Positions 19,675-51,741 of a stretch of 64,000 bases of DNA are shown here, in pieces. Position 1 is the stretch's first letter; each line of letters begins with the position of its first letter. Location: the NCBI RefSeq assembly GCF_015840915.1, contig NZ_CP060398.1:3348001-3412000 (forward strand). The letters run 5' to 3'. The stretch is from Synechococcus sp. CBW1002. GTDB taxonomy: Bacteria > Cyanobacteriota > Cyanobacteriia > PCC-6307 > Cyanobiaceae. A program made the position numbers and the translations under genes. The notes under the pieces were generated by a model, which ran no database searches, was not told the DNA's origin, and was given only the letters and a program-made list of their open reading frames with translations.

Positions 19675-19677
19675 CCA

Positions 19678-31317: not shown

Positions 31318-31333
31318 AAAGGCACCCACCTCA

Positions 31334-34645: not shown

Positions 34646-35075
34646 TGCCCAGGGCTGGAGCCCGGGCCAGTTCCTCTACGCCCTCTGTGAGCAGGAACTG
34701 GAACAACGGCAGATTGCCCGCCAGCAACGCCTGCTGCGCGGTGCCCATCTCCCGTGGCAGAAAGGTCTCGATGGCTTTGACCACCAGCACCTCGAGCCCC
34801 ACCACTGGCAGGAGCTCCAAGGCCTGACGCGGCAGACCACCTGGCTCCTGCAGGCGGAGAACCTGCTGCTGTTTGGTCCCAGCGGTGTGGGCAAGACCCA
34901 CCTGGCCATTGCCATCACGATGGCGATGGCGGCGCAGGACCAGGCCTGCCGCTTCTTCCCGGCCACCACGCTGGTGCAGCTGCTGCAGAAGGCCAAGGCG
35001 GCCTACGACCTGCCGGCGATGCTCCAGAAGCTCGATCGCTATGCCCTGCTGGTGATCGACGACATCTCCTACGTG

Positions 35076-36842
35076 GGGACTCCTGAAAAAGATTCTCGGC
35101 CCATCGGCGCCGGATTCGTCCGTTTGCTTCGCGTTAATCAGGCTGGCAAGCGCGGTGACATCAAGTCGGCCAGATCTCAAAAGCATGGCTTGCAGATGCC
35201 CTCAGGCGCTCTGATCGCTGACCAGGCCATAAAAAAGCTGTAGATCCACCCAAAAAGAAGGACAAAAAAGAGGCGCAGCAGCCTCAAGACCTTTTCCGCG
35301 CACATCACGACAAAGGCCATCGAGATGGAGGATTCGGCACCAGCTGGTAGACGAGCCATGATCAGATCCAGGGAATACTTGCGCTTTCCAGAGCCAAAGA
35401 CGCCTTCCACTTCATTGCGTCGAGCTTGATCAGATCGGAGCTGGTGCTTGTGTGCAGTGGTGACATCAGGATCCTTGGGCGGGCGACCCAATCGCTTGCC
35501 GGAGAGGCGAATACCGTTCCTCGTGCAGAAATGCCTATTCTTGGCCGTGATATAAATCCGGTCGGCGCAGATTCGCTCTGGGTAAGATCCTGTATCCAGC
35601 TTGTATTTTTCCGCCTGAGCGATAAGGTCTTCTCCTTCGTTGTAGGGGTTCCAGCTTATGCGGTGCAAGAACGGAAAGCCGTTTTGAACCGAAACACTGA
35701 TTTTGGCTCCAAACTCCACCGCAGCACGTGCTTTGCCTCGCACCATTGGGCGGATATGGGTCTGCACAAGATTCACCAGGCGGTCTGGAATGCTGTTGGT
35801 CTGAGAGGCGAGCAGAAGGCCCTGTTGCCGCTCCAACTCGCTGCAGGCCAACAACTTCTGCCACCAATGCCTCTTAAGCTCGGAAAGCCTTGCCCCGCAG
35901 CCGATCAGAGCATCAATGGCCTTGAGATTCTGCCGCACATAGCCAAGCTGATGTTTAATGGCAGCCTTCACTTTGCGGCGACGTGGTCGTTTTTGCTTCG
36001 CCACTCTCAGGAAATGAGCACGAGCAAGGCCACGGTCGTAGCGAGGTCGATGTCTCCTGAATCCCGATGACTGACTGCACAGATCATCAATGACTCGCTC
36101 GGTCGTTGTGCGAGCCTCGTTGAGGAGCTTGAGGTCTCTGGGATAGGTGATGTCGGCTGGAGTGCAACTGGCATCAATCGTGAGAGTGCCCCAATTCTTT
36201 CCTTCTGGCCAGTCAGCAGGCTTGATCAACGCATCAAGTTCTAGCTGAGCGCCTCCTCCACTGGAATCACGATCATCATGGTCGTCATCGTCTGCTGCCT
36301 GAGCAAGTGCTTCCAGAAGGATCTCTTTGCCGCGCTGCACCACCAGCTCGTTGATACGGCGCAGATCCTCGTCAGAAAAACGCTTGCGAAAGTGCACCAT
36401 CATCGAGGCATCAAACGGTGCCTTAGCTGTGTAGCCCGCAAAGCCGAGAAAGAACTGAATATAGGCGTTCTCTCTGATCTGATGGACTGTCTCTTCGTCG
36501 GTGAGCCCTAACTTCTGTTTGATGTAGAGAGCACCAAAGGCCATTCTCACTGATTTGGCTGGAGCGCCAATTGTGGCGCTGAATTGAGGGGCATAGGTTT
36601 CTTCCAGCTCATCCCATGGGATCAGCCCCTCCAGTTGAACCCAGCGATTCTCGGGATCAAGTGTGCCGCCAAATGGCAGGTGGAACTCCTTGATTGAGAT
36701 CTGACCGTTATTGTGCCTCCGGTACATATGGAACGATCAGGAGTAAAGGCAATCACGGATTGCCTGATTCACGGCCACTTTAGCGGTTTCTCATGCTTGA
36801 GACCAGCTGCGGCGCAATGGATCTGGATTTTTCAGGAGTCCC
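35076..36842 (-). mobile_element. ISc copy 2 (complete, 1767 bp)
   Basis: Target duplication TACGTG at 35070-35075 and 36843-36848, inside istB. Confidence 0.93.
35177..36727 (-). CDS. ISc transposase, copy 2
   Basis: 516 aa, identical in translation to copy 1, which indicates recent spread. Confidence 0.9.
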   Translation of the reverse strand: MYRRHNNGQISIKEFHLPFGGTLDPENRWVQLEGLIPWDELEETYAPQFSATIGAPAKSVRMAFGALYIKQKLGLTDEETVHQIRENAYIQFFLGFAGYTAKAPFDASMMVHFRKRFSDEDLRRINELVVQRGKEILLEALAQAADDDDHDDRDSSGGGAQLELDALIKPADWPEGKNWGTLTIDASCTPADITYPRDLKLLNEARTTTERVIDDLCSQSSGFRRHRPRYDRGLARAHFLRVAKQKRPRRRKVKAAIKHQLGYVRQNLKAIDALIGCGARLSELKRHWWQKLLACSELERQQGLLLASQTNSIPDRLVNLVQTHIRPMVRGKARAAVEFGAKISVSVQNGFPFLHRISWNPYNEGEDLIAQAEKYKLDTGSYPERICADRIYITAKNRHFCTRNGIRLSGKRLGRPPKDPDVTTAHKHQLRSDQARRNEVEGVFGSGKRKYSLDLIMARLPAGAESSISMAFVVMCAEKVLRLLRLFFVLLFGWIYSFFMAWSAIRAPEGICKPCF

Positions 36843-37099
36843 TACGTGCGCCGCAGCGAACTGGAGACCTCGGTGCTGTTTGAGCTGATCTGCCACCGCT
36901 ACGAGCGGAAATCCCTGCTGGTGACCAGCAACCAGCCGTTCCGGGAGTGGGACGACATCTTCCCGAGCGGATCGATGACCGTGGCCGCGGTGGACCGGTT
37001 GGTGCACCACTGCCACATCATCGGGATCAAGGGCGAGAGCTACCGGCAGAAGGCAGCTGCCGCAAGGGTTTCCAAGGATTCCAGCAACCCGCCAACGTA

Positions 37100-38866
37100 G
37101 GGACTCCTGAAAAAGATTCTCGGCCCATCGGCGCCGGATTCGTCCGTTTGCTTCGCGTTAATCAGGCTGGCAAGCGCGGTGACATCAAGTCGGCCAGATC
37201 TCAAAAGCATGGCTTGCAGATGCCCTCAGGCGCTCTGATCGCTGACCAGGCCATAAAAAAGCTGTAGATCCACCCAAAAAGAAGGACAAAAAAGAGGCGC
37301 AGCAGCCTCAAGACCTTTTCCGCGCACATCACGACAAAGGCCATCGAGATGGAGGATTCGGCACCAGCTGGTAGACGAGCCATGATCAGATCCAGGGAAT
37401 ACTTGCGCTTTCCAGAGCCAAAGACGCCTTCCACTTCATTGCGTCGAGCTTGATCAGATCGGAGCTGGTGCTTGTGTGCAGTGGTGACATCAGGATCCTT
37501 GGGCGGGCGACCCAATCGCTTGCCGGAGAGGCGAATACCGTTCCTCGTGCAGAAATGCCTATTCTTGGCCGTGATATAAATCCGGTCGGCGCAGATTCGC
37601 TCTGGGTAAGATCCTGTATCCAGCTTGTATTTTTCCGCCTGAGCGATAAGGTCTTCTCCTTCGTTGTAGGGGTTCCAGCTTATGCGGTGCAAGAACGGAA
37701 AGCCGTTTTGAACCGAAACACTGATTTTGGCTCCAAACTCCACCGCAGCACGTGCTTTGCCTCGCACCATTGGGCGGATATGGGTCTGCACAAGATTCAC
37801 CAGGCGGTCTGGAATGCTGTTGGTCTGAGAGGCGAGCAGAAGGCCCTGTTGCCGCTCCAACTCGCTGCAGGCCAACAACTTCTGCCACCAATGCCTCTTA
37901 AGCTCGGAAAGCCTTGCCCCGCAGCCGATCAGAGCATCAATGGCCTTGAGATTCTGCCGCACATAGCCAAGCTGATGTTTAATGGCAGCCTTCACTTTGC
38001 GGCGACGTGGTCGTTTTTGCTTCGCCACTCTCAGGAAATGAGCACGAGCAAGGCCACGGTCGTAGCGAGGTCGATGTCTCCTGAATCCCGATGACTGACT
38101 GCACAGATCATCAATGACTCGCTCGGTCGTTGTGCGAGCCTCGTTGAGGAGCTTGAGGTCTCTGGGATAGGTGATGTCGGCTGGAGTGCAACTGGCATCA
38201 ATCGTGAGAGTGCCCCAATTCTTTCCTTCTGGCCAGTCAGCAGGCTTGATCAACGCATCAAGTTCTAGCTGAGCGCCTCCTCCACTGGAATCACGATCAT
38301 CATGGTCGTCATCGTCTGCTGCCTGAGCAAGTGCTTCCAGAAGGATCTCTTTGCCGCGCTGCACCACCAGCTCGTTGATACGGCGCAGATCCTCGTCAGA
38401 AAAACGCTTGCGAAAGTGCACCATCATCGAGGCATCAAACGGTGCCTTAGCTGTGTAGCCCGCAAAGCCGAGAAAGAACTGAATATAGGCGTTCTCTCTG
38501 ATCTCATGGACTGTCTCTTCGTCGGTAAGCCCTAACTTCTGTTTGATGTAGAGAGCACCAAAGGCCATTCTCACTGATTTGGCTGGAGCGCCAATTGTGG
38601 CGCTGAATTGAGGGGCATAGGTTTCTTCCAGCTCATCCCATGGGATCAGCCCCTCCAGTTGAACCCAGCGATTCTCGGGATCAAGTGTGCCGCCAAATGG
38701 CAGGTGGAACTCCTTGATTGAGATCTGACCGTTATTGTGCCTCCGGTACATATTGAGCGATCAGGAGTAAAGGCAATCACGGATTGCCTGATTCACGGCT
38801 ACTTTAGCGGTTTCTCATGCTTGAGACCAGCTGCGGCGCAATGGATCTGGATTTTTCAGGAGACCC
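37100..38866 (-). mobile_element. ISc copy 3 (1767 bp, mismatched flanks)
   Basis: Left flank AACGTA, right flank TAAGTG (38867-38872), so there is no target duplication. One right-end base is changed (GGAGACCC). The right flank matches 28257-28262, pointing to recombination between ISc copies. Confidence 0.88.
37201..38751 (-). CDS. ISc transposase, copy 3
   Basis: 516 aa; differs from copies 1 and 2 by one residue seen (HQIREN to HEIREN near residue 82). Frame intact. Confidence 0.9.
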   Translation of the reverse strand: MYRRHNNGQISIKEFHLPFGGTLDPENRWVQLEGLIPWDELEETYAPQFSATIGAPAKSVRMAFGALYIKQKLGLTDEETVHEIRENAYIQFFLGFAGYTAKAPFDASMMVHFRKRFSDEDLRRINELVVQRGKEILLEALAQAADDDDHDDRDSSGGGAQLELDALIKPADWPEGKNWGTLTIDASCTPADITYPRDLKLLNEARTTTERVIDDLCSQSSGFRRHRPRYDRGLARAHFLRVAKQKRPRRRKVKAAIKHQLGYVRQNLKAIDALIGCGARLSELKRHWWQKLLACSELERQQGLLLASQTNSIPDRLVNLVQTHIRPMVRGKARAAVEFGAKISVSVQNGFPFLHRISWNPYNEGEDLIAQAEKYKLDTGSYPERICADRIYITAKNRHFCTRNGIRLSGKRLGRPPKDPDVTTAHKHQLRSDQARRNEVEGVFGSGKRKYSLDLIMARLPAGAESSISMAFVVMCAEKVLRLLRLFFVLLFGWIYSFFMAWSAIRAPEGICKPCF

Positions 38867-39100
38867 TAAGTGCAGGCATCTGACTCGATCTCAACGCCCA
38901 GTGCCCTGAGCGGCAGAGGGAGTGCCGCCAAGACATCAGGGCTCATGCCCCCACCCATGCGGGGGGGGGGGGGGCTCAGAGCCTCAGCGGTAATGGCATA
39001 GGCAAGAAATGTTGATGTGGTAGAGCCAAAGAGCAGCCTGCAATGCAGCAGGCATTACAGGCAATTGTGCAGATGCAAAAGGGCATTACTCATTCATAGT
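38867..39100. other. Gap downstream of the icfG-like operon with a G14 tract
   Basis: No gene seen. It contains a run of 14 G (38961-38974) just before CTCAGAGCCTC, and a weak GCCTGC/GCAGGC hairpin (39036-39053) without a T-run, too weak to call a terminator. This is the 3' side of the operon ending at 39101. Confidence 0.5.
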
Positions 39101-39664
39101 TCAGTCGGTCTTCAGGAGAGACAGTAGGTTTTGAGAGGCAAAGACATCACGGTAGAAAGTCAGCTGTTCACTCTTGAAGTAGCAGCCTCCCCGATGACCG
39201 CGACGGACCCAACAGACGGTTCCCTTGGCAAGAGTTTCACCGCTCTCATCGTCAAGACAGTGCCATTCAAAATGTACGAACTCACCCCAAAACATGACGA
39301 TGGGCCAGCACATGGTGACGTTTGGCTGTGCGATCAAGGCCCACCAATGGCGTTCACGTTCGGTTTGTTCAGTCAGACCATAAAAAGGACCATCCTGGCA
39401 AAAGTAAACCAAATCTTCACGGTACTCACCACGGAGCAGATCGCCGCGTGCACGCCGCAGCGCCTCACAGTGAGTCGGCCACCATTCCTTATTCTCAGCC
39501 TCAATCTGATCCGCGTCATACTCCGTGCTGATGGCGGGAAGTTCCTGTTCTCTTTTAGCGAGAATGGCTTCAGCCTGCTCAATAAGCTGATCGCCTAATT
39601 GTGTAGAAACAAGACCTGGCCTGGAAAAGTCGGCCGAAAGATGTTCGTAGTACTTGCGTGCCAT
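39101..39664 (-). CDS. Last gene of the icfG-like operon, unknown
   Basis: 187 aa. The N-terminal half is helical and charged (LIEQAEAILAKREQELPAISTEYDADQIEAENKEWW). The C-terminal half is beta-rich with many aromatics and cysteines (VMFWGEFVHFEWHCLDDESGETLAKGTVCWVRRGHRGGCYFKSEQLTFYRDVFA), reminiscent of an NTF2/SnoaL-like fold, which is only an impression. It starts 49 bases after the CMD-like gene. By position it may correspond to the unknown gene that ends the Synechocystis icfG region (slr1852-like), which I cannot confirm. Confidence 0.6.
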   Translation of the reverse strand: MARKYYEHLSADFSRPGLVSTQLGDQLIEQAEAILAKREQELPAISTEYDADQIEAENKEWWPTHCEALRRARGDLLRGEYREDLVYFCQDGPFYGLTEQTERERHWWALIAQPNVTMCWPIVMFWGEFVHFEWHCLDDESGETLAKGTVCWVRRGHRGGCYFKSEQLTFYRDVFASQNLLSLLKTD

Positions 39665-39713
39665 TGCTGATCAGTATTGGTGGGAGGATGGGGGGCGTTT
39701 GTCAGATCACCTC

Positions 39714-40076
39714 TTAAGTCCGGGATCTGATCTCTTTTAGTTTTCCAAAGGCACCGGCCGCTTTATTGAAGCCACAGTAGGCACATGTGAACAGGAGGAG
39801 CTCTTCAATCTCTTCAATGGTTGCACCTTGCTTTAGGGCCATGTTCACATGTGCTTCGAACGGAGTTCCTGGCCCATCCAGAGACTGGTTGGCCACATCC
39901 AAAGCAATTGTAATCAAGCACTTTATCTTTTGAGAGATAATTGGCTTCCCCCAGACTTCTCCACAGACCCTGATGCAGAGCTCACCAAAATCCGGATTGA
40001 TTCCGAGAAGGGCTTGCTGAAGGTCATGGTCATCGGTGACAGCATTATTCATGGTGGGGTTGGTGTCTGCGGTCAT
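39714..40076 (-). CDS. Carboxymuconolactone decarboxylase (CMD)/AhpD-like protein
   Basis: 120 aa. CMD core EAHVNMALKQGATIEEIEELLLFTCAYCGFNKAAGAFGKLKE. A Cys98-x-x-Cys101 pair and nearby Glu74/His76 resemble the AhpD-type redox and proton-relay residues, so a thiol redox role is possible. The pathway decarboxylase activity itself is not implied. A CMD-family gene (slr1853) belongs to the Synechocystis icfG region. It lies 40 bases after the kinase gene. Confidence 0.8.
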   Translation of the reverse strand: MTADTNPTMNNAVTDDHDLQQALLGINPDFGELCIRVCGEVWGKPIISQKIKCLITIALDVANQSLDGPGTPFEAHVNMALKQGATIEEIEELLLFTCAYCGFNKAAGAFGKLKEIRSRT

Positions 40077-40116
40077 GGCTTCATGGAGTGGATTTTGCAG
40101 GAGGGACGCGAGGGTC

Positions 40117-40602
40117 TCACGGTTGCTTAACTACCTCGGGGTTGCAGGCCATACAGAGCTCATACACATTATTCCCATTAATCCAGTCGTATGAGACCTT
40201 GTCGACGGACTGTTCAATGAGAAAGATGCCTAGCCCACCGATCTTCCTCTCATGGACGGGTTGATTCGTATCGAATGGAGGCCCTTGATTGAAATTAGGA
40301 TTAAACTGAATTCCCGTATCGCTCGTGCGAAGCACAAGCCAGGGTTCTCCATCCTCATTTCGTAGCATCAGAGAAACTGCCAGCTTGGCGTCCTTATCTG
40401 CGACAGATTTGTTGGCGTTAGCAGCTCGAATGATGTTTGAGATGAGCTCTTCGTAGGCGAGCTTGAGCTTGTAAGCGCGTGACTCATCTGCGATGACACG
40501 GTGGATATGCTCGGTAGCAAAATCAATGAAATGATCCCATTGATCCATTGATGCAGGAGCCTCAATACTGCCAAGTTCTTTACCGCCGATAGAATCTCTC
40601 AT
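40117..40602 (-). CDS. RsbW/SpoIIAB-like serine kinase / anti-sigma factor
   Basis: 161 aa, a single GHKL ATPase domain (HATPase_c_2). N-box LAYEELISNIIRAANA (Glu51/52, Asn56), G1-box position TSDTGIQFNP (Asp95), G2-box IGGLGIFLIEQSVD (122-134). Such proteins bind a target (classically a sigma factor) and phosphorylate STAS antagonists on Ser. It resembles Slr1861 of the icfG cluster. Its start is six bases after the upstream STAS gene; in Synechocystis the phosphatase gene icfG lies between these two, and here it is missing. Confidence 0.87.
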   Translation of the reverse strand: MRDSIGGKELGSIEAPASMDQWDHFIDFATEHIHRVIADESRAYKLKLAYEELISNIIRAANANKSVADKDAKLAVSLMLRNEDGEPWLVLRTSDTGIQFNPNFNQGPPFDTNQPVHERKIGGLGIFLIEQSVDKVSYDWINGNNVYELCMACNPEVVKQP

Positions 40603-40608
40603 TACATT

Positions 40609-40932
40609 CTAAATCTCCTCCTCACTGTCGACAATCACGACAGCCTGAGCCAGGCCTGTCTTCGTGACTGTGTCGATAATCTGCTCGGATGCACCCACCA
40701 GGTAAAGGCGGGATGTATGGGGCATTTTCTGCTTGGCAAAAACAATAGCTCTGAGTCCGGCACTGCTGACAAAACCAACATCCAGAAGATTCAGGCGAAG
40801 CTGCTCTAACGCATGAAGTTCCAGTGAAGTCAGCTGGCTGAGTAGGTCTGGGGCTGTTTTTGTGTCGATATCTCCTGAGAGCACCAGGGTTGCATGGATG
40901 TCGCCTTGGACGATGTCAATTGTCAGAGACAT
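40609..40932 (-). CDS. STAS-domain anti-sigma antagonist 2
   Basis: 107 aa, one STAS domain (IDIVQGDIHATLVLSGDIDTKTAPDLLSQL..). The phospho-site loop is DVGFVSSAGLRAI, with Ser57 in the place of SpoIIAA Ser58. It resembles Slr1859. It is expected to cycle between phosphorylated and free forms under the downstream kinase and an unlinked phosphatase. Confidence 0.88.
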   Translation of the reverse strand: MSLTIDIVQGDIHATLVLSGDIDTKTAPDLLSQLTSLELHALEQLRLNLLDVGFVSSAGLRAIVFAKQKMPHTSRLYLVGASEQIIDTVTKTGLAQAVVIVDSEEEI

Positions 40933-40973
40933 AGTTGTGGAGTGAAGTGGTGAAAGTGAGCAATTGTTGGAGA

Positions 40974-43091
40974 CTACGTCTCAAGCGGAGACGCGGAAAA
41001 GATGACGACAGATCTTTCTCCTACCAAAATGCCATGATTAGCATAAGCAATGGCTTGAGTCAGATTGGGTGATTGCGTGTCACCAGTGTTGAAATGCAAT
41101 TGCCAACCATAGCCCGAAGGCAGTGGAGGTAAATCGAACCAGCTGGCATAGTGAGCCGTGTTAGTGGCGACATAAACCGCATCCATGACGTCTGAATCAG
41201 CCTGATCACAGCTCATCAGCCATGCGAGTTGCCTGGATTCATCTGACCAGTTCACTTGCCATGGGGTTGTGCCATGAAAGCTGCAGCTAGGCAGATGCCT
41301 GCTGCCGCCATGCGTAAAGCTGTTAATACGCAAGCAGGGATGCTGTTGCCTGAAATGAATCAGTGCTTGCGTATACTCAAACAGTGCACGGTTGCTTTCA
41401 AGCAGAGCCCAATCGACCCATGACACAGGTGAGTCAATGCAATAAGCATTGTTATTGCCATGCTGTGAGCGTCCAAACTCATCACCCATCAGCAGCATGG
41501 GTGTACCTCGGCTTGTCATCAGCATGCTCAATGCATTCATGCATTGCCTTATTCGCAAGGCCAGAATGTTGCTGTTATCAGTCCAGCCTTCGGCGCCACA
41601 GTTCCAGCTGTAATTGTCATCACCGCCATCACGGTTGTTTTCGCCATTTGCTTCATTGTGCTTCTCATTAAAGGAGACAAGATCCGCCAATGTGAAGCCG
41701 TCATGGCAGGTGATGAAGTTGATGGATGTCGCTGGTGAGCGACCATTCCATTGATAGAGGTCGGGTGAACCCTGAACCCTTTGTGCCATTTCGCCGACTT
41801 GCCCTTGATCCCCTTTCAGATAACGCCTGGCAGTGTCTCTATATTTACCATTCCACTCAGACCATCGACCAAAGGCAGGAAATGTACCTACTTGGTAGAG
41901 ACCTCCGGCATCCCACGCTTCGGCGATTAGCTTGCATGATGAGAGGATGGGATCAAAAGCAAGCGATTCCAGCAAGGGAGGATTGTTGAGTGGTGCTCCC
42001 CAGGGATCACGTCCTAGGATGCTGGCCAAGTCAAATCTGAAGCCATCAATGTGGTATTCAGATGCCCAATATCGCAAGCAGTCTAGAACAAGGTTCCTGA
42101 CAACCGGATTGTTGCAGTTAAGAGTATTGCCTGTCCCGCTGAAGTTAAAATAGTATCCTTCAGGCGTCAGCATATAGTAAATCTTGTTGTCCAGTCCCTT
42201 AAACGAGATCGAGGGGCCGCGCTCATTGCCTTCAGCCGTGTGGTTGAATACGACATCAAGGATGACCTCTATACCGGCCTTGTGGAGCTGCTTGACAAGT
42301 TGCTTGAACTCGTCAACCTGCATCCCAAACCGACCGGATGCCGCAAAACCAGCCTTGGGTGCGAAAAAGGCTACAGTGCTATAGCCCCAATAGTTATACA
42401 GCTTTTCGCTGGTATCCGGATGTGTTTTTGAGTTTTCGAATTCATCGAATTCGAAAACTGGCATTAACTCTACAGCATTGACGCCAAGCGATTGCAAGTA
42501 TGGGATTTTTTCGGCAATGCCTGCGTACGTTCCCTTAAACTTGACGCCCGAAGACTCGCTCTTGGTGAAAGAGCGCACATGTAATTCATATATTATAAGA
42601 TCGGCGTCATTGATCTCGAGGGGAGAGTCTCCTTCCCAGTCAAAGTCATCGAACGCCACTCGGGATCGATACTGGTACTGTTTGTTCCAATCGGGCTCAA
42701 CTCCCCATTCATCTCGTCCCGAAATAACCCGGGCATAGGGATCCATGAGAATGTTATCTGGATTGAAGCGATGCCCTTCTTCAGGCAAGTAGGGGCCGTC
42801 TATCTTAAAGCCGTACTCAACATCTTCATAGTCGAGGTCGTATACTACGATGGAGTAGACGTCACCAATACGGTAGTGATCCGGAATCTTGATTTCGGCT
42901 AATAAGGACCCTTCTGATCGGCTGAATAATACAAGCGCGCAGGATGTTCCCGCCGATGTATAGACAGAAAAATTAAGTCCGCCCGGCACTGAGGACACAC
43001 CGAATGGCAAAGGTTTTCCAGTTCGTATGCGATAACCTGCAAGCGTATCCGTGGGTAGATTGTCAATTCTTTCAAGGTCCATCACAGTCAT
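40974..43091 (-). CDS. glgX: Glycogen debranching enzyme / isoamylase (GlgX type)
   Basis: 705 aa. N-terminal CBM48-like domain (TGKPLPFGVSSVPGGLNFSVYTSAGTSCALVLF). GH13 barrel motifs: DVVFNHTAEG (279-288), GFRFDLASILG with nucleophile Asp354, KLIAEAWDAGG with acid/base Glu391, and FITCHDGFTLADLV with His463/Asp464. It hydrolyses alpha-1,6 branches of glycogen in the cytosol. Its placement between two STAS genes, with a 4-base overlap at its start, makes it the metabolic partner of the switch, as slr1857 is in the icfG cluster. The chromosome probably has another glgX. Confidence 0.93.
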   Translation of the reverse strand: MTVMDLERIDNLPTDTLAGYRIRTGKPLPFGVSSVPGGLNFSVYTSAGTSCALVLFSRSEGSLLAEIKIPDHYRIGDVYSIVVYDLDYEDVEYGFKIDGPYLPEEGHRFNPDNILMDPYARVISGRDEWGVEPDWNKQYQYRSRVAFDDFDWEGDSPLEINDADLIIYELHVRSFTKSESSGVKFKGTYAGIAEKIPYLQSLGVNAVELMPVFEFDEFENSKTHPDTSEKLYNYWGYSTVAFFAPKAGFAASGRFGMQVDEFKQLVKQLHKAGIEVILDVVFNHTAEGNERGPSISFKGLDNKIYYMLTPEGYYFNFSGTGNTLNCNNPVVRNLVLDCLRYWASEYHIDGFRFDLASILGRDPWGAPLNNPPLLESLAFDPILSSCKLIAEAWDAGGLYQVGTFPAFGRWSEWNGKYRDTARRYLKGDQGQVGEMAQRVQGSPDLYQWNGRSPATSINFITCHDGFTLADLVSFNEKHNEANGENNRDGGDDNYSWNCGAEGWTDNSNILALRIRQCMNALSMLMTSRGTPMLLMGDEFGRSQHGNNNAYCIDSPVSWVDWALLESNRALFEYTQALIHFRQQHPCLRINSFTHGGSRHLPSCSFHGTTPWQVNWSDESRQLAWLMSCDQADSDVMDAVYVATNTAHYASWFDLPPLPSGYGWQLHFNTGDTQSPNLTQAIAYANHGILVGERSVVIFSASPLET

Positions 43092-43414
43092 GCTCCTGGA
43101 ATGGCTTGCAGTGAATCATAGACCGTAAAGAATTGATAGAAGCCAGTGACTTTCATCGTGTCAGCAATGTCATCTGCGACGCCAATAAGGACAAGATCGA
43201 CACCCATATCTTGAGTTTTCCGTTGTAGGGTCAGCAACGTTCTTAAGCCAGCACTCGACATGAATGGCACGTCTGTTAACTCAAGGGCGACAGGCTGAGA
43301 TGGCTTGAGTTCGGTGTCGATGAAGTCACGCAGTTCACCGACAGTCTTTGAATCGATCTGACCACTGACTCGGATCACCTGCCAGTGGCCGTAAGCTTCA
43401 AGTTGTACTTGCAT
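43088..43414 (-). CDS. STAS-domain anti-sigma antagonist 1
   Basis: 108 aa, one STAS domain with phospho-loop DVPFMSSAGLRTLL (Ser54). It resembles Slr1856. Its stop overlaps the GlgX start (ATGA), suggesting translational coupling. Only about 30% similar by eye to antagonist 2, so the two have separate ancestry or roles. Confidence 0.88.
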   Translation of the reverse strand: MQVQLEAYGHWQVIRVSGQIDSKTVGELRDFIDTELKPSQPVALELTDVPFMSSAGLRTLLTLQRKTQDMGVDLVLIGVADDIADTMKVTGFYQFFTVYDSLQAIPGA

Positions 43415-43428
43415 GATTCAGCTCTCCT

Positions 43429-45258
43429 TCACTTCGGTGAAACGGTTACTTTGACCTGGAGCCGATGCTCCGATTCTGGCAGCTTAACTGTCAGTGCATT
43501 TGCATCAAAATCCGTATAGGCCTGACCATCAATTTCACAGCTACTGATATAGACAGATCCCTTGGGGAGGATGTCTGGCTCTACCCTGAGAATTCCATCC
43601 TTGAAGCCGCCAGGTATGGGCTTGAAGAACAAATCCAAAGGCCGCTTCTTGATCAACAGATCGATATAAACAGTAGACAAGAAGCAAAGCTCGGTGGAAT
43701 GATACGCACTCATGGAGTGGCTGCCCTTGAATCGTTCTGTGCCTACCAAGTAAGGAATGCCGTTCGCTAGGACATTGAAGTAGACACCCCCGTCATTGTT
43801 GTCTAGGAAGAAAGCATTGTAGAAAGCCGCCGATTCTTCGGCATACTTCTTGTATTCAGTGCTGTCAGGCATGTGCCCTTGTAGAATTAGATAGGCTAGA
43901 ATTCCCTGTTCTTGTTGCCACCAAGCTTTGCGGTCATGCCATGCATAGCGGTGGAACTTCTCATTGGGATCGAGGACACGCTCGACAACGTCATACCAGC
44001 CGAAGCGCTGATTATCATAACCCACCTTGGGCATTAAGAAAGCAATCTTCTTGGCAATATCGAGGTATTTATCTTTACCCATCTCTGCATAGAATCTCAT
44101 GAGATTCCACGCGATTTTGAGATTATGGCCAACGACCGCGCGGTTTTGCTGCCATCCCCATGATTGGTCCTTGCTCCAATTGTCAAAGAACTTCTCTTGC
44201 ACGAAAGGGCTGTTGTCGTAGTCAGGGAAATGTTTGCTAATTGTATCGAAAGTATCCTCAAGCATCTTCTTATAACGCTCTTCGCCCGTTGCAAGCCAGA
44301 GATTGATTAGATACGCGGGAGCGTGATCGCCCACCGAGTTCCAATTCTTCTTGGCTTTGTTGCGGCCCAGGCTTTCCTCATGGGCACTCAGGGTTACAGC
44401 ATGGATGTGTGAATAATAGCCGCCTTTTTCATGGTCTTTAAAGCACTCGTCAAATAGATCGACAGTCTTTTCCGCATCATCGAGGATGCGGGGATCACCC
44501 GTGAGTCTGTAGGTTTGTACGGGCCCTGCGAGTGCATAGATCTGCTCGTAGGCGGGGATGCAATCGTAGTCATCTCCGAACTCCGACACCAACAGTTTTT
44601 GTTCTTCCCCACCACTGCCGACTTTTTGGCCGTGATACCAGTAGATGAGACCGGTATCTGTATCCGTAAATCTCATCTTATCGCGCAAATACTCGGTACC
44701 CTTTTCAGCTGCATCAAGGTACATTTCTTTGCCCGTAAGCATGTAGGCGCAGGCCATGCCGTATACCATTCTGGAGATGGTATCCGTCTCTTGCAGGTAA
44801 TCCTCTTGCTTTTTCCCGCCCGTAAGGCTGATCAGTGTCCGGTAGTGATGGTAATCAATGGCTGATTCCGGTGCATTGAACTGCCATTTGCAGTACGAGG
44901 CTGCAATCTGATCAATTTGCTTGACCCACCAGCCTTTTTCATCTGCATAGCGATACTCATCCTTCGCGTCACCAGCGAAGATGATGTAGTTCGCTTCAAA
45001 CTTAACTCTGTCTTCTGGGAAGAAGGTGCCATAGACAAAGACCATCTGACCAGGCACCAGCAGCTTTTGGAGATCACCGGACCGGTCTGGCCATCCCTCG
45101 CCCAGATTCTGGGTCTGCTTGGCATAGGTGTTGCCGGTTAGCTTTGCTTCATAGTTTCTGTCATCAGAAGTTTTGATGCCAATTAGCTTATTGCCTTCGT
45201 CGTAGCTGGTGACATAGCCTGAGATCAGATCCGAGAATGTGAAGGTGAGATCATTCAT
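43429..45258 (-). CDS. AGE-family epimerase-like (alpha/alpha)6 barrel protein
   Basis: 609 aa. An N-terminal beta domain of about 100 residues (FSDLISGYVTSYDEGNKLIGIKTSDDRNYEAKL) is followed by a long N-acylglucosamine 2-epimerase-like helical barrel (GMACAYMLTGKEMYLDAAEKGTEYLRDKM; VGHNLKIAWNLMRFYAEMGKDKYLDIAKKI; WWQQEQGILAYLILQG) and a C-terminal beta tail. Typical AGE enzymes are about 400 aa, so the extra domains set this family apart. The substrate is unknown; a sugar or oligosaccharide is likely given GlgX. The same type (slr1855) is in the Synechocystis icfG region. The next gene starts 14 bases later. Confidence 0.82.
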   Translation of the reverse strand: MNDLTFTFSDLISGYVTSYDEGNKLIGIKTSDDRNYEAKLTGNTYAKQTQNLGEGWPDRSGDLQKLLVPGQMVFVYGTFFPEDRVKFEANYIIFAGDAKDEYRYADEKGWWVKQIDQIAASYCKWQFNAPESAIDYHHYRTLISLTGGKKQEDYLQETDTISRMVYGMACAYMLTGKEMYLDAAEKGTEYLRDKMRFTDTDTGLIYWYHGQKVGSGGEEQKLLVSEFGDDYDCIPAYEQIYALAGPVQTYRLTGDPRILDDAEKTVDLFDECFKDHEKGGYYSHIHAVTLSAHEESLGRNKAKKNWNSVGDHAPAYLINLWLATGEERYKKMLEDTFDTISKHFPDYDNSPFVQEKFFDNWSKDQSWGWQQNRAVVGHNLKIAWNLMRFYAEMGKDKYLDIAKKIAFLMPKVGYDNQRFGWYDVVERVLDPNEKFHRYAWHDRKAWWQQEQGILAYLILQGHMPDSTEYKKYAEESAAFYNAFFLDNNDGGVYFNVLANGIPYLVGTERFKGSHSMSAYHSTELCFLSTVYIDLLIKKRPLDLFFKPIPGGFKDGILRVEPDILPKGSVYISSCEIDGQAYTDFDANALTVKLPESEHRLQVKVTVSPK

Positions 45259-45303
45259 GATGACTGTGATACGTGTCTAATAGTGTGTAGTAAATGCCCC
45301 TGA

Positions 45304-45885
45304 TTAGAGGCTTTGCACCGCCGTTTTGAATCGCTCTACAAAAATATCAACGCAGCCTGGATGCTTACCTGTGATCAGGAGACCTTGCTGATGCAGTTCG
45401 ACGGTGCTACCTGCATTGACCATGATGTTTCCGCCTGCATTGGCCACATCACAGACAATATTATGGGCGCAGGTGACTTCTCGGCCCTTGATCAAACTTG
45501 GATCTGCGCAGAAGAGCCAAAGCGAATGGCAGATTGTACCGACAGCCAAAGTGCCTTGATCCATTAAGGCTACAGCTTTGCGGAGAAGCTGGACGGCAGG
45601 AGCTTGATTGGTCGCACCGAGTGTTTCCTCGTAACGCAGCCTATCCATCGCATAGCCACCTATCAGAATCAGTCCCTGGTAATCGGCCAGATCAATCTTG
45701 CTGACACAAAGACTCACCTCTACGTTGCTGGTTTTATCGTTGCCCTCAAAGTTCAGCGTATCATTACCCCAAAGGTAGGAAGCATACTCAACCTCAATGT
45801 CAACGCGAGGGAAGAACTCGTTGAAGACGTTGTATTCGGTTTCGTCGTAGTGCTCTTCAATGAGCACAAGCACTTTTTTGTGCAT
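45304..45885 (-). CDS. DJ-1/PfpI-family protein, first gene of the operon
   Basis: 193 aa. Flavodoxin-like DJ-1/PfpI fold with the nucleophile elbow GTICHSLWLF (Cys119-His120), LILIGGYAMDRLR, and the terminal LLITGKHPGCVDIFVERF. Members are proteases, glyoxalases, deglycases or chaperones; this one is not assigned. It starts 26 bases downstream of the -10 element. AGE follows after 45 bases. Confidence 0.85.
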   Translation of the reverse strand: MHKKVLVLIEEHYDETEYNVFNEFFPRVDIEVEYASYLWGNDTLNFEGNDKTSNVEVSLCVSKIDLADYQGLILIGGYAMDRLRYEETLGATNQAPAVQLLRKAVALMDQGTLAVGTICHSLWLFCADPSLIKGREVTCAHNIVCDVANAGGNIMVNAGSTVELHQQGLLITGKHPGCVDIFVERFKTAVQSL

Positions 45886-45910
45886 TCACTTTGTCCATAA
45901 TATCATTTAA

Positions 45911-45939
45911 ACTATAATGGAAAAATCGAGGTTCGGCAA
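45911..45939 (-). promoter_or_regulatory. Promoter of the icfG-like operon
   Basis: Minus strand: TTGCCG (45934-45939), 17-base spacer, TATAGT (45911-45916), placed about 26 bases before the DJ-1 start codon. The IS3a remnant ends 24 bases upstream of the -35. Confidence 0.7.
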
Positions 45940-45962
45940 CCTTTTGCGCTTTTTCTCCATAT

Positions 45963-46049
45963 TGAGGTGGTCTGGCGTTTCTGGACAGCCCCCATCGTTA
46001 ACCTCTGGGCGGGGCACTGCCCCTGATCGGGGCTCCCACCTGTCCGCCG
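45963..46049 (+). mobile_element. IS3a remnant (copy 6, diverged left end)
   Basis: About 87 bases match the IS3a left end (TGAGGTGGTCTGG...CATCGTTAACCTCT) with several changes (GCGTTTCTGGACAGC, GGGCGGGGCACTG). It is cut off before orfA by the ISi terminus. It has more differences than the other copies, so it is probably older. Confidence 0.82.
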
Positions 46050-46474
46050 ACAATGAAGTTGGCCGGCGCTTTGCATCAACAACTTGTTACCCATTTCAAT
46101 TGACGCCTGGTAACACTGGCTTCTGCACGCTTTCACCTTCCTGCAGGCTTGGAGGCCCGGCCACCGCCAGAGCGGCCATCTCGTTCTCGATCCATTGCAG
46201 CCGGTAACCGCGCAGGCGCCGCTGCAGGGTGCGCAGGTGGCGTGGGCTGTAGCGCTCCGGGTTGTGATCGATCAGCCGCTCCAGCAGCGTCTTGGCCCTG
46301 AGCTGGGGCTCGGCCTGCAGCCATAGCTCGATCCGCTCCACATCCGGTTCAAACGGATCGGGCCTGCTGCGTTTGCCGATGCGTGGCTTGGGTTTGCGAC
46401 GCCTGGGCTCCCCCTGCGTCAGGAAAGAAGTCCGCTCGGTCTGACCCATCCACTAGGGGGCCAAACCGAGGACC

Positions 46475-46984
46475 ATGAAACCGATTTATGACCAGGCCGT
46501 GCGGGCTGAGATCCGCAATCGCATGAGCCCGCCCAACCGAGAGAGCGTGGCCGAGATCGCTCGCTCCACCGGCATCACTACCCAGACCCTCTACAACTGG
46601 CGCAGTCAGTGGCAGAAAGAGGGCCAGCTGGTGCCGGCCACCAGCAAGCCGCCGGAGCAGTGGGGCGCATCCGACAAACTGGCCGCCGTGATCCAGGCCG
46701 CAGGCCTCAGCGGCCCCGATCTCGGCGCTTACTGCCGTGAGCGGGGCCTCTACCCCAAACAGCTTGCCCGCTGGCGCCAGGCCGCTGAGGATGCCAATGG
46801 CCCCAGCGCGCCGACCATGACCGACCACAGGGATCTACAGCGCAAAAACCAGGAGCAGGCACGCCAGATCCGGCGCCTTGAACGTGAGTTGCAGAAGAAG
46901 GAAAAAGCTCTTTCGGAGGCGGCAACATTGCTGATGCTGTCAAAAAAGCTCGATCAGCTTTGGCTGCAAGAAGAGGAGTCCTGA
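46475..46984 (+). CDS. ISb OrfA (copy B)
   Basis: 169 aa, identical in translation to the copy at 24667-25176. It overlaps orfB by 25 bases. Confidence 0.87.
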   Translation: MKPIYDQAVRAEIRNRMSPPNRESVAEIARSTGITTQTLYNWRSQWQKEGQLVPATSKPPEQWGASDKLAAVIQAAGLSGPDLGAYCRERGLYPKQLARWRQAAEDANGPSAPTMTDHRDLQRKNQEQARQIRRLERELQKKEKALSEAATLLMLSKKLDQLWLQEEES

Positions 46985-48039
46985 TTCCGTCAGAGCAGAG
47001 AAATAAAGCCATGGACTTTCTCCATGAAGGCCTCAATGCAGGAGCTTCCATCAAGGCTGTTGCTGATCTGATCGGCATCTGTTCACGCACTCTGCGGCGC
47101 TGGGGGCTTGATATCAGCGGCCAGGGATTCAGTGTGGACCGCCGCAAGGGTGCCCCACGTGAAGTGGCTCACAGATTCACGGCAAAAGGGCGGCAGCGGG
47201 TGATTGACTCCGTCAATGATCCGCGCTTTGCCGATCTTGCGCCTGCTCAGATCGTGGCCATTCTTGCTGAGGAGAGAATGTATGTGGGTTCAGAGTCGAC
47301 GATCTATCGCATCATGCGGCAGGAAGGCCTGCTGAATCATCGTGGCAGGGCCCGCTCTCCCCGCGAGCCAAGACCAGTCCCGGTGCTGGAGGCAACAGGA
47401 GTTTACCAAGTGCTGGCCTGGGATATCACCCTGTTGCCCGGCCATGTCAAGGGTCAATTCTACTACCTCTACATGGTGATGGATGTGTGGAGCCGCCGCA
47501 TCCTTGGAGTGGAAGTGCATGAGCGCGAATGCAGCGTGCTCGCCAGCGCATTCTTTGATCGCGTCTGCCGCGATGAAGGAATCAACAAGGAGACTGCTGC
47601 GGTCCTGCACTCGGACAATGGCGCCCCCATGCGCTCATTCGCCTTGGCGGCCAAGATGGCGGAGCTGGGTGTTTCGCTCTCGTTCTCCAGGCCGCGCGTC
47701 AGCAACGACAACGCCTACGCTGAATCATGGTTCCGTACCATGAAGTACCACCAGAGTTATCCGCTACGGCGCTTCCGGGAACTGCTCTCGGTAAAAGCCT
47801 GGGTGGATGGCTTTGTCGAGTGGTACAACGCTGAGCACCGGCACAGCGGCATCAAGTACGTGACGCCCAATCAGCGGCACTACGGCCAGGCCGATGGGAT
47901 CTGTGCCATCCGGCAGAAGACCTACGAAGAAGCTCGGCAGAAGAATCCGCAGCGCTGGAGTCGTCACATCCGTGACTGGAGCCAGCCACAGGTTGTGAGC
48001 ATCAACCATCCCCGTCCGCAGCAACCTATCGCTACTTGA
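46960..48039 (+). CDS. ISb OrfB (copy B)
   Basis: 359 aa; differs from copy A at two residues seen (VDRRKG for VDHRKG, AKGRQR for AKERQR). DDE residues intact. Confidence 0.9.
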   Translation: MAARRGVLIPSEQRNKAMDFLHEGLNAGASIKAVADLIGICSRTLRRWGLDISGQGFSVDRRKGAPREVAHRFTAKGRQRVIDSVNDPRFADLAPAQIVAILAEERMYVGSESTIYRIMRQEGLLNHRGRARSPREPRPVPVLEATGVYQVLAWDITLLPGHVKGQFYYLYMVMDVWSRRILGVEVHERECSVLASAFFDRVCRDEGINKETAAVLHSDNGAPMRSFALAAKMAELGVSLSFSRPRVSNDNAYAESWFRTMKYHQSYPLRRFRELLSVKAWVDGFVEWYNAEHRHSGIKYVTPNQRHYGQADGICAIRQKTYEEARQKNPQRWSRHIRDWSQPQVVSINHPRPQQPIAT

Positions 48040-49411
48040 CCCTCAACAATCCAGGCCCCCGTGGCTGTCCGATGGCGCCCCTCGGTGGGCGCCATCGGAC
48101 ACAGCCGCGAACAGGGGCCGGACGCCCCAACCCCGACCAAAGACAGCCATCGATGACAACGACACCCCGGCCACGGCGACCCTGAACCTCAACCCGCAGT
48201 ACACTCAAGTTCGGTGCTCAGCTCAGCACCCCGAGCGGACAACTTCCCTGATAGGTCCCGGCTGGTTGTTCTGCCAGAGGTCCTGCAGGCCGCCCAGGAA
48301 CACCTCCAGCGATCGGTTCTCCGCAGCCAGATCCCTCTCCGTTCGGCTGGCTTGCAAGGCAGAGCCCTCCTCAGCGCTGCCCAGCACCGCCAACTGGCCC
48401 TGGCAGCGGCGAATCGTGGCGAGCAAGGCCACCGGGTCACTGCGGCGCCGTAGCTCCCGCCAGGGTTCGGCCGTCTCCTCGCTCAGCACGCCACTGGCCA
48501 GCAACCGCTGCAGGGGCGTTCGCGGTGGGTGGTGCTGCCGCTTGATCCGGCCGCCGTCGCGCTCACTGCTTTTGAGCTTGAACGATGGCTGGAACAGGTT
48601 GGTGAACAGCCGCAGCGCGCCGTACAGCTCGCCCAGCACCTGGGCCGCCTCCAAACCCTCCAGCCGCTGGTAGCCCACCACCCGGCGCACCAGCATCCCG
48701 TTCTTCTGCTCCACCCAGGCCTGGTCATTGCTCTGGTACGCCCGCGATCGGGTGAGCACGATCTGGTGGCCCGGCCGGTCACACCAGGCCTCCATCAGGC
48801 TGTTCATGAACACCGGGTCGTTGTCGGCATCGATCCCACGTAGTGGAAACGGCAGTTGCCGGCGGATCAGCTGCAGGGCCGTGAGCACCACCGCGCCATC
48901 GCGCACCAGGATCGGCAGGCTTTCGCTCCAGCCCGTGGCGATATCCGTGGCCATCAGAGTCCAAAGAAAGGGGCCCTGCATGCGGCCGCCGCAATGGGCC
49001 ACCAGATCGATTTCCAGCCAGCCAGGCTCCCTGTGATTGCTCCAGCCCTTGAACGTGCGCACCGGCACCCGCCGCCGCACGGCGCTGTAGGCCCGCGGCG
49101 GCCGCCGCCAGTTGTTGGCAGCGCTGGTCTTGCGGATCGGTGCCAGTAGCCGATCGATCGTGGCGCTACTCATCGCCAGCACCTGCTCACGCACCGCAGG
49201 CTCCAGGTTCAGGTGGCCGTGTTGCTCCAGCGACTCCACCAGCAGCGGTAGCAGGGCCGCCAGGCGCTTACCGCACAACCGATCACTGGCCTCCCACAAC
49301 GGCACGAGCGCCGCTGCCGCCTCGGGGCCATAGCGGCGCCGTGGATGGGGCTTGAGGGCCGCCTGATCGAGCGGCCCTTCTGATTCGGCGGGGGCAACAG
49401 CCTGGCGGGCC

Positions 49412-49846
49412 GCGTCCCTTGGCGTGGTGTGGTGTAAATCCCGAGGCCCGATTGCCCTGGACTGAGGGAGAACAGGGGTGAATGACGGGCTGTCATTCTC
49501 GAGGCGCATGTGCACCTCGTTATTTCACGATGAATCCAGACGATTGACTTGTCAAGTCTTTCGTCTGGATTGCCGATCGGTTGTGGGCTACACCTGCAAT
49601 CTTGGTCGTGACGTCTGCGGTGCCGGCCCCCGGGCGGTGATCGCCGCCGCTGCGCCCTGTGGGGGCGCTACGGCGCGATCTCCTGGGGCCTGAGGCTCAG
49701 GCCGCTGCTTCTTGCAAGGAAGGCTGCGTGGGCAGCTCCGCCAGTGAGGGGATGGCGGCCATGCTCTCGGCGGAGAACATGCGCCGGCCCTCCAGCTGCC
49801 AGTGCTCGTCCTGCTCCAGCAGCACAGCCCCCACCAAGCGGGTGAT
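49412..49846 (-). mobile_element. IS256 element 1, 3' fragment (inverted)
   Basis: Matches 22553-22982 in reverse: the last about 50 codons of the transposase (ITRLVGAVLLEQDEHWQLEGRRMFSAESMAAIPSLAELPTQPSLQEAAA) plus the about 280-base tail and terminal repeat. It has five extra bases (ACACC doubled) near the end. It is cut at 49847 by IS3a copy 7. Confidence 0.87.
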
Positions 49847-51112
49847 TGAGGTGGTCTGGCTTTTCTGGACAGGCCCCATCGTTAACCTCTGAGGCGGGGT
49901 ACCGCCCCTGAAAGGGGCTCCCACCGATGAGCAAGCGCCGCACCCACAGCCCCGAGTTCAAGGCCAGGGTCGCCATGGAGGCGATCAGTGGCCGCAAGAC
50001 GATCCAGGAGATCGCCGCCGACCACGCCATCCACCCGATCCAGGTGAGCCAGTGGAAGCGGCAGCTCCTGGACGGTGCCAGCGAGCTCTTCACCCGAGGC
50101 AAGAAGACCAAGGACAAGGAGGAGGGGCAGGCCAAGGAGGCGGAGCTGTTCCAGCAGATCGGACGGCTGCAGATGGAGCTGGAGTGGCTCAAAAAAAAGT
50201 CTCAACTGCTCTGATGCCCGTGAACTGCGCAAGCTGGTCGATCACGACCACCCCGAGCTCAGCATCAGCAGGCAGTGTGCGCTGCTGGGGCTGCCTCGAT
50301 CCACGCTGTACTACCGGCCGACACCGGTCCGTGTATCGACGCTGCGGATCATGGCCAGGATCGATGCTCTCTACCTGGAGGATCCCTGCAGCGGCAGCCG
50401 CCGGATGGTGGACTATCTGGCCCAAGATGGTATCCCGATCAGCCGAGATCGAGTGCGAAACCTCATGCGGCGCATGGGATTACGGGCGATCTACCAGAAG
50501 CCCCGGACGACGGTTCCAGGTGATCCGTCCGTGCGGTTCCCCTGCCTGGTGGACCTCACGCAGGTCACGTCGGTGGATCAGGTCTGGGCGACCGACATCA
50601 CCTACATCCCTCTGCAGAAAGGGTTCCTCTATCTGGTGGCGATCATGGATCTCCATTCCAGGCATGTGCTCAGCTGGAGGCTCTCCAACAGCCTTGACAC
50701 GAAGTTCTGTCTGGAGGCCCTGGAGATGGCCTTGGGAGGCGGCCGTAGGCCAGAGATCTTCCACTCCGATCAAGGCTGTCAGTTCACGTCCGCTGACTTT
50801 GTGGCCAGACTCAAAGGGGAGCGGATCCAGATCAGCTGGTCCGGCAGAAAGCGGTGCTACGACAACATCCTTGTTGAACGGCTGTGGAGGACTGTCAAGT
50901 ACGAGGAGGTCTACCTACGGGCATACAGCGATGGCTGGGACGCTGAAATCAGCCTGGCCCGCTTCCTGTGGCGGTATTGCCATGTAAGACCTCACAGTTC
51001 CCTTGGAGGCAAAACTCCCCACGCGGTCTACACTGAGGCCGAACCATGTTCCACCCGTCCTGGGTTAACGATGTCAGGGGCCGGAACTGTCCAATAAAAG
51101 GCACCCACCTCA
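49847..51112 (+). mobile_element. IS3a copy 7 (complete, 1266 bp)
   Basis: Both ends intact; flanks GAT and ACA do not match, so one side has recombined. Confidence 0.92.
49927..51097 (+). CDS. IS3a transposase OrfAB (copy 7)
   Basis: OrfA 49927-50214; OrfB to 51097. Translations are identical to copies 1 and 2; same A8 junction. Confidence 0.88.
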
Positions 51113-51156
51113 ACAGGAGGGTCGCTGTGCTTCCCTTGATCGCTTAGCGATCAACA

Positions 51157-51273
51157 TAAGGGCACCTCGAAAAGTCGTCCTTTCCGGGACTTCCAGGCCG
51201 GGATGACTCAGGCTGGGGAATGAGTCTCACTCGGCTCATCCACGAGGAATTGGGATTTTTCGAGGTGCCCTTA
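51157..51273. repeat. MITE-like 117-bp element with 17-bp inverted ends
   Basis: TAAGGGCACCTCGAAAA at 51157-51173 and its exact complement at 51257-51273. No coding capacity. Ends of the AGGGCACCTCGAAAA kind suggest mobilisation by a full IS elsewhere. A separate TTGATCGC/GCGATCAA palindrome lies just before it (51136-51154). Confidence 0.65.
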
Positions 51274-51680
51274 ATGACTTCGTACTTGCCAGAAGAACGT
51301 TTGACGCCGAAAGGTCTTGATGAAAGTTCTCCTGCTTCGCCAGAGGCTCCTCCCTTGAACAGTGATGGGCATTTTCGAAGCGACTCTGTAAGAGCTTCCC
51401 CCTCACCGCCTGAGGCTCAATCTTTCGGAACTCAGACTGGCGTGGAGCTTCAGACAGTTCAATAACCGTCACAACTGGCTTTACATTTCGTCGCAGATTT
51501 TTCTGGCGGCTTTAGCGATGCATCAAGTGGCCCAAGCCCCCCCCCATGCCCTACCTGGATGTGCCGCTGCACCATCCGCAAACACGTGGGGAACTCCCAT
51601 GCCAGGACCGCAGCCTATGAACTGAGCCCTTCAGGCCAGCAAGTCCGCAACTCAACCGGAGGCGCAATCACACGCCCTCT
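51274..51680. other. Island right-end stretch without a recognised gene
   Basis: Short open frames on both strands (about 80 codons) have no ribosome-binding sites and mutually overlap; none looks like a real protein. It contains a C-rich stretch near 51535. Confidence 0.45.
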
Positions 51681-51718
51681 TGGCTCTGACAAGTGGTTCT
51701 GACATCTCAGGTCTGACA
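51681..51718 (+). repeat. Right arm-type repeats (TCTGACA x3)
   Basis: TCTGACA at 51685-51691, 51698-51704 and 51712-51718. The first two have the same 13-bp spacing and context as the pair at 11461-11484. Confidence 0.55.
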
Positions 51719-51741
51719 GCCCGAGACTCATGTCGTAGAAA

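Follow-up and report, generated by a model that had tools for sequence, protein, structure and literature searches.

An icfG-type partner-switch operon on a genomic island of Synechococcus sp. CBW1002 and its unlinked candidate phosphatase

The DNA described here, termed the window, is a 64,000-nt stretch of the genome of Synechococcus sp. CBW1002 (G000; 3.85 Mb, single contig; G000:C1:3,348,001-3,412,000), and coordinates without a contig label are positions within it. The window carries an operon of eight minus-strand genes that are transcribed in the order DJ-1, AGE epimerase, STAS, GlgX, STAS, RsbW-like kinase, CMD and NTF2-like protein (Table 1). The genes lie where an earlier reading of the bare sequence (the original prediction) had placed them, and the recomputed gaps of 45, 14, -4, 41, 6, 40 and 49 bases equal those given there. 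Pfam assigns the open reading frames (ORFs) to DJ-1_PfpI, GlcNAc_2-epim, STAS (twice), GH13/CBM48, HATPase_c_2 and CMD, and leaves one protein, of 187 aa, without a family. The structure model of this protein (mean predicted local distance difference test score, pLDDT, 86.6) has the SnoaL-like protein 7e85 as its top fold match (E 9.7e-07), while that of the AGE protein (mean pLDDT 83.7) resembles in fold glucose 2-epimerase (8h1l, E 5.8e-18), cellobiose 2-epimerase and mannose isomerase; sequence searches of the PDB gave no match for either protein (AGE, E up to 0.001; 187-aa, E up to 1).

Partner switches of the Rsb/Spo type are represented by RsbU-RsbV-RsbW and SpoIIE-SpoIIAA-SpoIIAB. The CBW1002 system shares with them a GHKL kinase and STAS proteins with a conserved serine, has a SpoIIE-type PP2C as candidate phosphatase, and differs from them in having two STAS proteins placed among metabolic enzymes and no sigma gene in the operon. 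The SSAGLR motif that had been noticed in both STAS proteins is indeed present, and both keep the phosphoacceptor serine, whose position in this motif we take from SpoIIAA; the kinase keeps its ATP-site motifs (Pfam and alignment), read at the positions that we assume for them. The Synechocystis PCC 6803 counterpart is a single operon that encodes the epimerase Slr1855, STAS protein Slr1856, isoamylase/GlgX1 Slr1857, STAS protein Slr1859, PP2C IcfG (Slr1860) and kinase Slr1861 (PMC12329169, PMC8670252). By described gene content, the CBW1002 operon resembles this icfG cluster (slr1852-slr1862), with epimerase, STAS, GlgX, STAS and kinase in the same order, in one operon and on a single strand. 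It is unlike the icfG cluster, which is linked to the coordinated use of inorganic carbon and glucose, in that it lacks a PP2C, resides on an island and has its candidate PP2C unlinked. Judged from sequence, it would be a complete-looking icfG-type metabolic partner switch, and it is close kin to the operons of four other genomes (G176, G212, G140 and G061).

The operon sits within an integrative genomic island, as indicated by direct repeats, an integrase and an empty site in one relative. The flanks had already been called mobile, which is confirmed, and the boundaries can now be drawn more sharply, around a 40.3-kb insertion with 43-bp direct repeats. The repeat is perfect, has exactly two copies on the plus strand of the window and a single copy at the junction in G023, the sole other same-genus genome compared; there, window positions 1-11399 align to G023:C6:342089-353563 and positions 51738-64000 to G023:C6:353517-365983. 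The repeat and the integrase make insertion in G000 the preferred explanation over deletion in G023. Vertical inheritance at this position in relatives without the island finds no backing in this only same-genus relative, which has the empty site and lacks an AGE match at E 1e-60. Of the island ORFs submitted to Pfam (several gave no match, and some short ORFs lay outside the scan), the remaining ones with a match encode transposases or a reverse transcriptase of a group II intron, so that the operon alone was recognised as non-mobile cargo; no conjugation genes, such as an integrative conjugative element would carry, were found in the same scan. The same rve-type insertion sequence (IS) stands on both sides of the cargo, as it would in a composite transposon.

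Such surroundings raise the question of whether insertion sequences have left the operon stranded as a silent passenger, since IS copies flank it on both sides and no distinctive promoter precedes it. The "one good promoter" of the original prediction did not hold up: 12 consensus sites were found compared with 8.2 ± 3.2 in shuffled sequences, the site upstream of DJ-1 has 9/12 matches, and the promoter is thus no better than background. The terminator-like stem after the last gene is likewise weak alone, because the number of such sites is near the shuffled background. Nevertheless, all eight frames are open and conserved with respect to relatives, and the kinase and STAS motifs are kept, which makes a silent passenger very improbable. 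Special decay of the kinase in G000 was considered and ruled out, since the kinases of G176 and G212 are equally diverged; synonymous sites are saturated in all G000 pairs except one STAS pair.

Table 1. Features of the window and of the aspS region of the CBW1002 genome
Feature	Position	Strand	Basis or remark
Left 43-bp direct repeat (attL-like)	11357..11399		identical to 51742-51784
40.3-kb integrative island, absent from same-genus G023	11400..51741		comparison with G023
Tyrosine (phage-type) integrase, 452 aa, just inside left repeat	11515..12873	+	Pfam Phage_integrase 31.1 bits, cut-off 27.1
rve-type IS transposase left of operon	31971..32975	+	Pfam rve/HTH_21; same element at 14837, 16695, 18253, 50075
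IS transposase (DDE_Tnp_1_2, DUF772)	35177..36727	-	near-identical copies 26206-27756, 37201-38751
Second DDE_Tnp_1_2 transposase copy, directly downstream of operon	37201..38751	-	translation
Terminator-like stem, 11 pairs, after last gene	39036..39062	-	9 sites in region vs 6.3 ± 2.8 in shuffles
187-aa protein, predicted NTF2/SnoaL-like fold	39101..39664	-	no Pfam match; structure model
CMD-family protein	39714..40076	-	Pfam CMD 1.4e-12
RsbW/SpoIIAB-like serine kinase (anti-sigma type)	40117..40602	-	HATPase_c_2 1.1e-14; alignment
Second STAS (RsbV-like), SSAGLR	40609..40932	-	STAS 1.4e-12
GlgX glycogen debranching enzyme	40974..43091	-	NCBIfam TIGR02100 695 bits, cut-off 641
First STAS (RsbV-like), SSAGLR	43088..43414	-	STAS 1.1e-19
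AGE-family sugar 2-epimerase/isomerase, extra N- and C-terminal parts	43429..45258	-	GlcNAc_2-epim 9.6e-15
DJ-1/PfpI family protein, first gene	45304..45885	-	Pfam 2.3e-13
IS transposase (rve) upstream of operon	46960..48039	+	Pfam rve_3/rve
rve-type IS transposase right of operon	50075..51097	+	Pfam; copy of 31971-32975 element
Right 43-bp direct repeat (attR-like)	51742..51784		identical to 11357-11399
Two aspS genes	G000:C1:843247-845133 and 857453-859435		sequence comparison
HAMP-PP2C, 687 aa	G000:C1 850,563-852,623		HAMP + SpoIIE domains

The distribution of the operon was followed in 251 genomes of the family Cyanobiaceae, G000 included. At a threshold of E 1e-60, 17 of them carry AGE: nine are of the window type (74-100% identity, G000 counted) and eight have only a copy that is ~52% identical. 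In the pyrG tree G000 groups with G023, and G176 with its own-genus relatives G064 and G009, both outside the 17 AGE genomes; the distribution is therefore patchy. The AGE+GlgX tree places G000 with G176, G212, G140 and G061 at 100/100, and the nearest rows are the same in the STAS+kinase tree, which disagrees with it in other respects set out below. Hence joint transfer of the core genes, which the original prediction had proposed to test with gene trees, is only partly resolved for the five genes, and it may be called plausible, not demonstrated. A second, native copy of the module in G000 was checked for and ruled out by the AGE, STAS and kinase matches, with one AGE gene and no other adjacent STAS-kinase set among them; two further GlgX-like genes exist (48% and 41%), and the match to the former contains a stop. 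The second AGE type (~52% identical, ~720 aa) was also seen in L051-L056 (L-numbers denote loci from a scan of contigs), paired with GlgX and with no STAS or kinase gene in the stretches read.

An iterated profile search gave no PP2C match among the window ORFs of at least 60 aa, so the operon and the window lack the phosphatase, as had been claimed, and reannotation brought none to light. The argument that the six-base gap between the second STAS gene and the kinase gene marks a lost phosphatase did not survive comparison. The contig scan yielded at least 579 confirmed relatives, of which the best 80 were taken, so the counts refer to close relatives; 59 of these loci extend for 8 kb or more to either side, and the 21 that fall short on one side were left uncounted. 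The complete core (AGE, GlgX, at least two STAS and kinase) is found in 50/59 loci, belonging to Bacteroidota (23), Cyanobacteriota (19), Chloroflexota (3), Thermodesulfobacteriota (3) and Pseudomonadota (2). A PP2C gene between second STAS and kinase, i.e., the icfG order, is present in only 8 of these 50, all labelled cyanobacterial, and in 0/9 window-type operons of the family. It lies between AGE and kinase in 11/50 and anywhere in the fetched locus in 32/50 (L157, with its PP2C beyond the distance limit, is counted as PP2C-bearing over the whole fetched locus), and of the 30 loci with a tight STAS-kinase junction, 13 nonetheless have a PP2C nearby. As the position of PP2C is variable among relatives, the inference of its loss from the six-base junction was rejected. 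The module also occurs on plasmids: on one from Streptomyces the gene order is unchanged and the annotation puts a PP2C gene behind the kinase, and one from Deinococcus bears a similar gene set with no annotated kinase.

In the rest of the CBW1002 genome three SpoIIE-type PP2Cs are encoded. The one at 0.85 Mb (Table 1) groups with the operon-linked PP2C class, and the seemingly missing phosphatase is thus probably still present elsewhere in the genome. Relatives of this long PP2C, defined by E under 1e-40 and coverage of the PP2C domain, were found in G080, G123, G143, G126, G176, G212, G140 and G061, while five more genomes match by sensor only. Counting G000, the long PP2C accompanies the window-type operon in 8/9 genomes vs 1/242 others (Fisher p 2.3e-13, a value that ignores kinship). 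The sole long-PP2C genome without a window-type operon, G143, is 73% complete and has the ~52% AGE type. The tree of PP2C domains places the G000 protein within the family's long PP2Cs, adjoining operon-linked PP2Cs of other cyanobacteria and of Chloroflexota, and its membership of this clade holds after 5/53 long-branch rows are dropped. With the same rows dropped, its grouping with housekeeping PP2Cs is disfavoured in the approximately unbiased (AU) test, at a p of 0.037 that is near the line and concerns a group named after the tree was seen. The motif DVCDKG occurs in the 0.85-Mb PP2C (1/3 of the G000 PP2Cs), in 13/13 long PP2Cs of the family and in 15/18 PP2Cs from 16 chosen operon loci; it was found in 0/16 background proteins and in 0/3 of the GAF or other types. 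It is not universal for operon neighbours, since 32/51 PP2C ORFs in the 80 loci have it. The nearest named NCBIfam model is SiaA of the Pseudomonas SiaABCD system, at 55/700 bits, far below the cut-off, and the likeness concerns the phosphatase alone.

The absence of a PP2C from operon and window, together with the three genomic PP2Cs, one of which has a domain 90% identical to PP2Cs of other family genomes, could be read as the original prediction had it, namely that there is no dedicated phosphatase and the STAS proteins either lose their phosphate through the action of the housekeeping PP2C (1.11 Mb) or keep it. This is quite unlikely, because the operon-linked PP2C class co-occurs with the operon and G000 keeps a member of it; for the same reason a switch locked in the phosphorylated state has become less likely. 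The 1.11-Mb protein is widespread in the family and does not belong to the operon-linked class. The cyanobacterial GAF-PP2C HltA has been reported as ubiquitous (PMC9430166), and the wide spread of the 1.11-Mb PP2C suggests that it may be the HltA counterpart; Pfam shows no GAF domain in its 614-aa ORF.

The 0.85-Mb gene lies in the gcvT-aspS-pyrG neighbourhood. In G176, G212 and G140 the operon lies between gcvT and aspS, with a PP2C gene and a GH13-like gene divergent upstream, and in G212 and G140 another PP2C gene follows the kinase. The G061 operon keeps the window gene order, DJ-1 through NTF2-like, with a PP2C gene behind it. In G023 a few genes separate gcvT from aspS and pyrG. G000 shares the G023 arrangement, with an insertion that comprises a second aspS, five genes (338-aa protein, 471-aa protein, transporter, Lar_N protein and PP2C), IS copies, aspS scraps and a sigma fragment, the last being the first quarter of the gene with a protein 98% identical to that of G176. 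The second aspS, away from pyrG, encodes a protein 94.6% identical to that of G176, compared with 92.6% for the other copy; at the DNA level it shows a slight difference, 91.5% to G176 vs 90.9% to G023. In G123 a GH13 gene and a related PP2C lie at aspS and the operon is on another contig with its own GAF-PP2C upstream; in G080, ~8 kb separates the long PP2C gene and the operon. We infer that operon and phosphatase have one of their homes near aspS and that they can become separated.

In the 0.85-Mb PP2C, the sensor half groups with cyclase-fused sensors (100/99) in a tree that used four of the five cyclase sensors (L166, a truncated ORF, was left out); Pfam finds a cyclase output domain in 5/5 of these related proteins. 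The loci of the latter, short as read, contain relatives of both the 471-aa and the 338-aa gene in 4/5 cases and of the 471-aa gene only in 1/5, and G068 has the whole lactate-racemase-like cluster. The AU test does not reject a tree in which the G000 sensor joins PP2C-linked ones (p 0.138), and consequently a sensor swap is suggested, not proved, as is a change of the PP2C input in G000. The phosphatase might then regulate only the adjoining lactate-racemase-like/transporter cluster, its likeness to operon PP2Cs reflecting ancestry without present function; the PP2C gene overlaps the one that follows it there, and the PP2C sensor is similar to those of cyclases that stand beside relatives of the same cluster. 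On the other hand, the output is a cyclase and not PP2C in the five sensor loci read, all from genomes without the window-type operon, which makes PP2C an unusual sensor partner in G000, and regulation of the cluster alone appears unlikely.

The explanation that we favour, with some reserve, is that the island carries an icfG-type partner switch that can be transferred and whose PP2C is unlinked and possibly rewired. The proposal of a transferable regulatory module is supported by the icfG-type gene content, the island carriage and the empty site in G023, and is maintained without the inference of phosphatase loss that had accompanied it. In Synechocystis, Slr1861 phosphorylates Slr1856, Slr1859 and Ssr1600, IcfG removes phosphate from Slr1856, not Slr1859, and Slr1861 is proposed to hold SigC (PMC12329169). 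By analogy, the RsbW-like kinase would phosphorylate both island STAS proteins, and a sensor PP2C would dephosphorylate STAS when its signal is present; unphosphorylated STAS would bind the kinase, which would release its client (a group-2 sigma factor, SigC in Synechocystis), and carbon use would be adjusted in concert with GlgX and the sugar epimerase, both encoded in the same operon. The 0.85-Mb PP2C would be the best candidate to dephosphorylate at least one island STAS protein, and in this way it may serve the island operon.

Several observations weigh against this explanation, in addition to the kinship that the Fisher test ignores, the borderline AU value and the association of the sensor with cyclases. 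The PP2C gene lies ~2.5 Mb from the operon inside the lactate-racemase-like/transporter cluster and may serve only that cluster, and its exact place inside the PP2C clade is unsupported (67/52). G030 has the window-type operon without a long PP2C, its PP2C being of the GAF type like that beside the G123 operon, and G123 itself has such a GAF-PP2C in addition to the long one. The STAS+kinase tree places G061 outside the others (82/90), unlike the AGE+GlgX tree, and has no starred set containing G000. Other STAS and HATPase_c_2 proteins in G000 allow cross-talk. Finally, no sigma client was found among the aspS-linked sigma gene and six others examined, which were picked genes and not a census; those six pair with G023 counterparts, and the sigma gene beside aspS was ruled out as a dedicated target, as it has a match at E 1e-115 or better in 94/251 family genomes.

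The phosphate-removing part of the module varies in place and in sensor, and in one group of Bacteroidota it is absent, with a STAND NTPase instead. The 18 complete loci without PP2C belong to Spirosomataceae (15), Hymenobacteraceae (2) and Cytophagaceae (1), while five other Bacteroidota loci do carry PP2C. A relative of an nSTAND1-WD40 protein follows the kinase in 18/18 loci without PP2C vs 0/32 with it (phmmer, E 1e-50 or better); the query was the Runella protein L005:14298-17489, and the Pfam nSTAND1 and WD40 domains were read on this L005 copy only. The 18 loci are mutually related, and the exchange of PP2C for nSTAND1-WD40 may thus be a single event. Loci with such a gene, besides L005, are L100, L102, L103, L108, L111, L114, L116, L119, L123 and L129, as well as L131, L132, L133, L138, L143, L146, L150 and L154. 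A wider conjecture, which we regard as possible and somewhat doubtful, is that the operon is a plug-in with exchangeable input: in G000 its PP2C would have been detached and would bear a sensor of the kind found in a lactate-racemase-like uptake cluster, where it is otherwise fused to a cyclase, and which brings a new signal; in Spirosomataceae and kin PP2C would have been replaced by the nSTAND1-WD40 NTPase. If true, the replacement would represent a novel type of input for a STAS/RsbW partner switch.

The icfG switch itself is already known, in the accessible parts of the literature found, from one model cyanobacterium; the same material describes no such island, spread of the module or nSTAND1-WD40 replacement (older icfG papers lay outside the search), and the available part of PMC7159879 does not mention epimerase, glycogen or nSTAND1. 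Among the loci read, the core (epimerase, STAS, GlgX, STAS and kinase) is distributed over five phyla and is carried also by plasmids and an island. Which phosphatase acts where the operon has no PP2C, and can a STAND NTPase substitute for it? Both questions are testable.

Variants of the module were seen as well. In L004, L095, L096, L099 and L109 the genes DJ-1, AGE, STAS and GlgX are followed by genes for a MinD/ParA and a CHAT protein, with no second STAS or kinase gene in its usual position; L096 and L109 have these further on, on the opposite strand. Genes for a GAT1-type amidotransferase, a thiamine diphosphate (TPP)-dependent enzyme, a VOC protein, a GMC oxidoreductase or an ester-cyclase-like protein recur around the module in L006, L010, L050, L053, L100, L107 and L126, which hints at a larger pathway.

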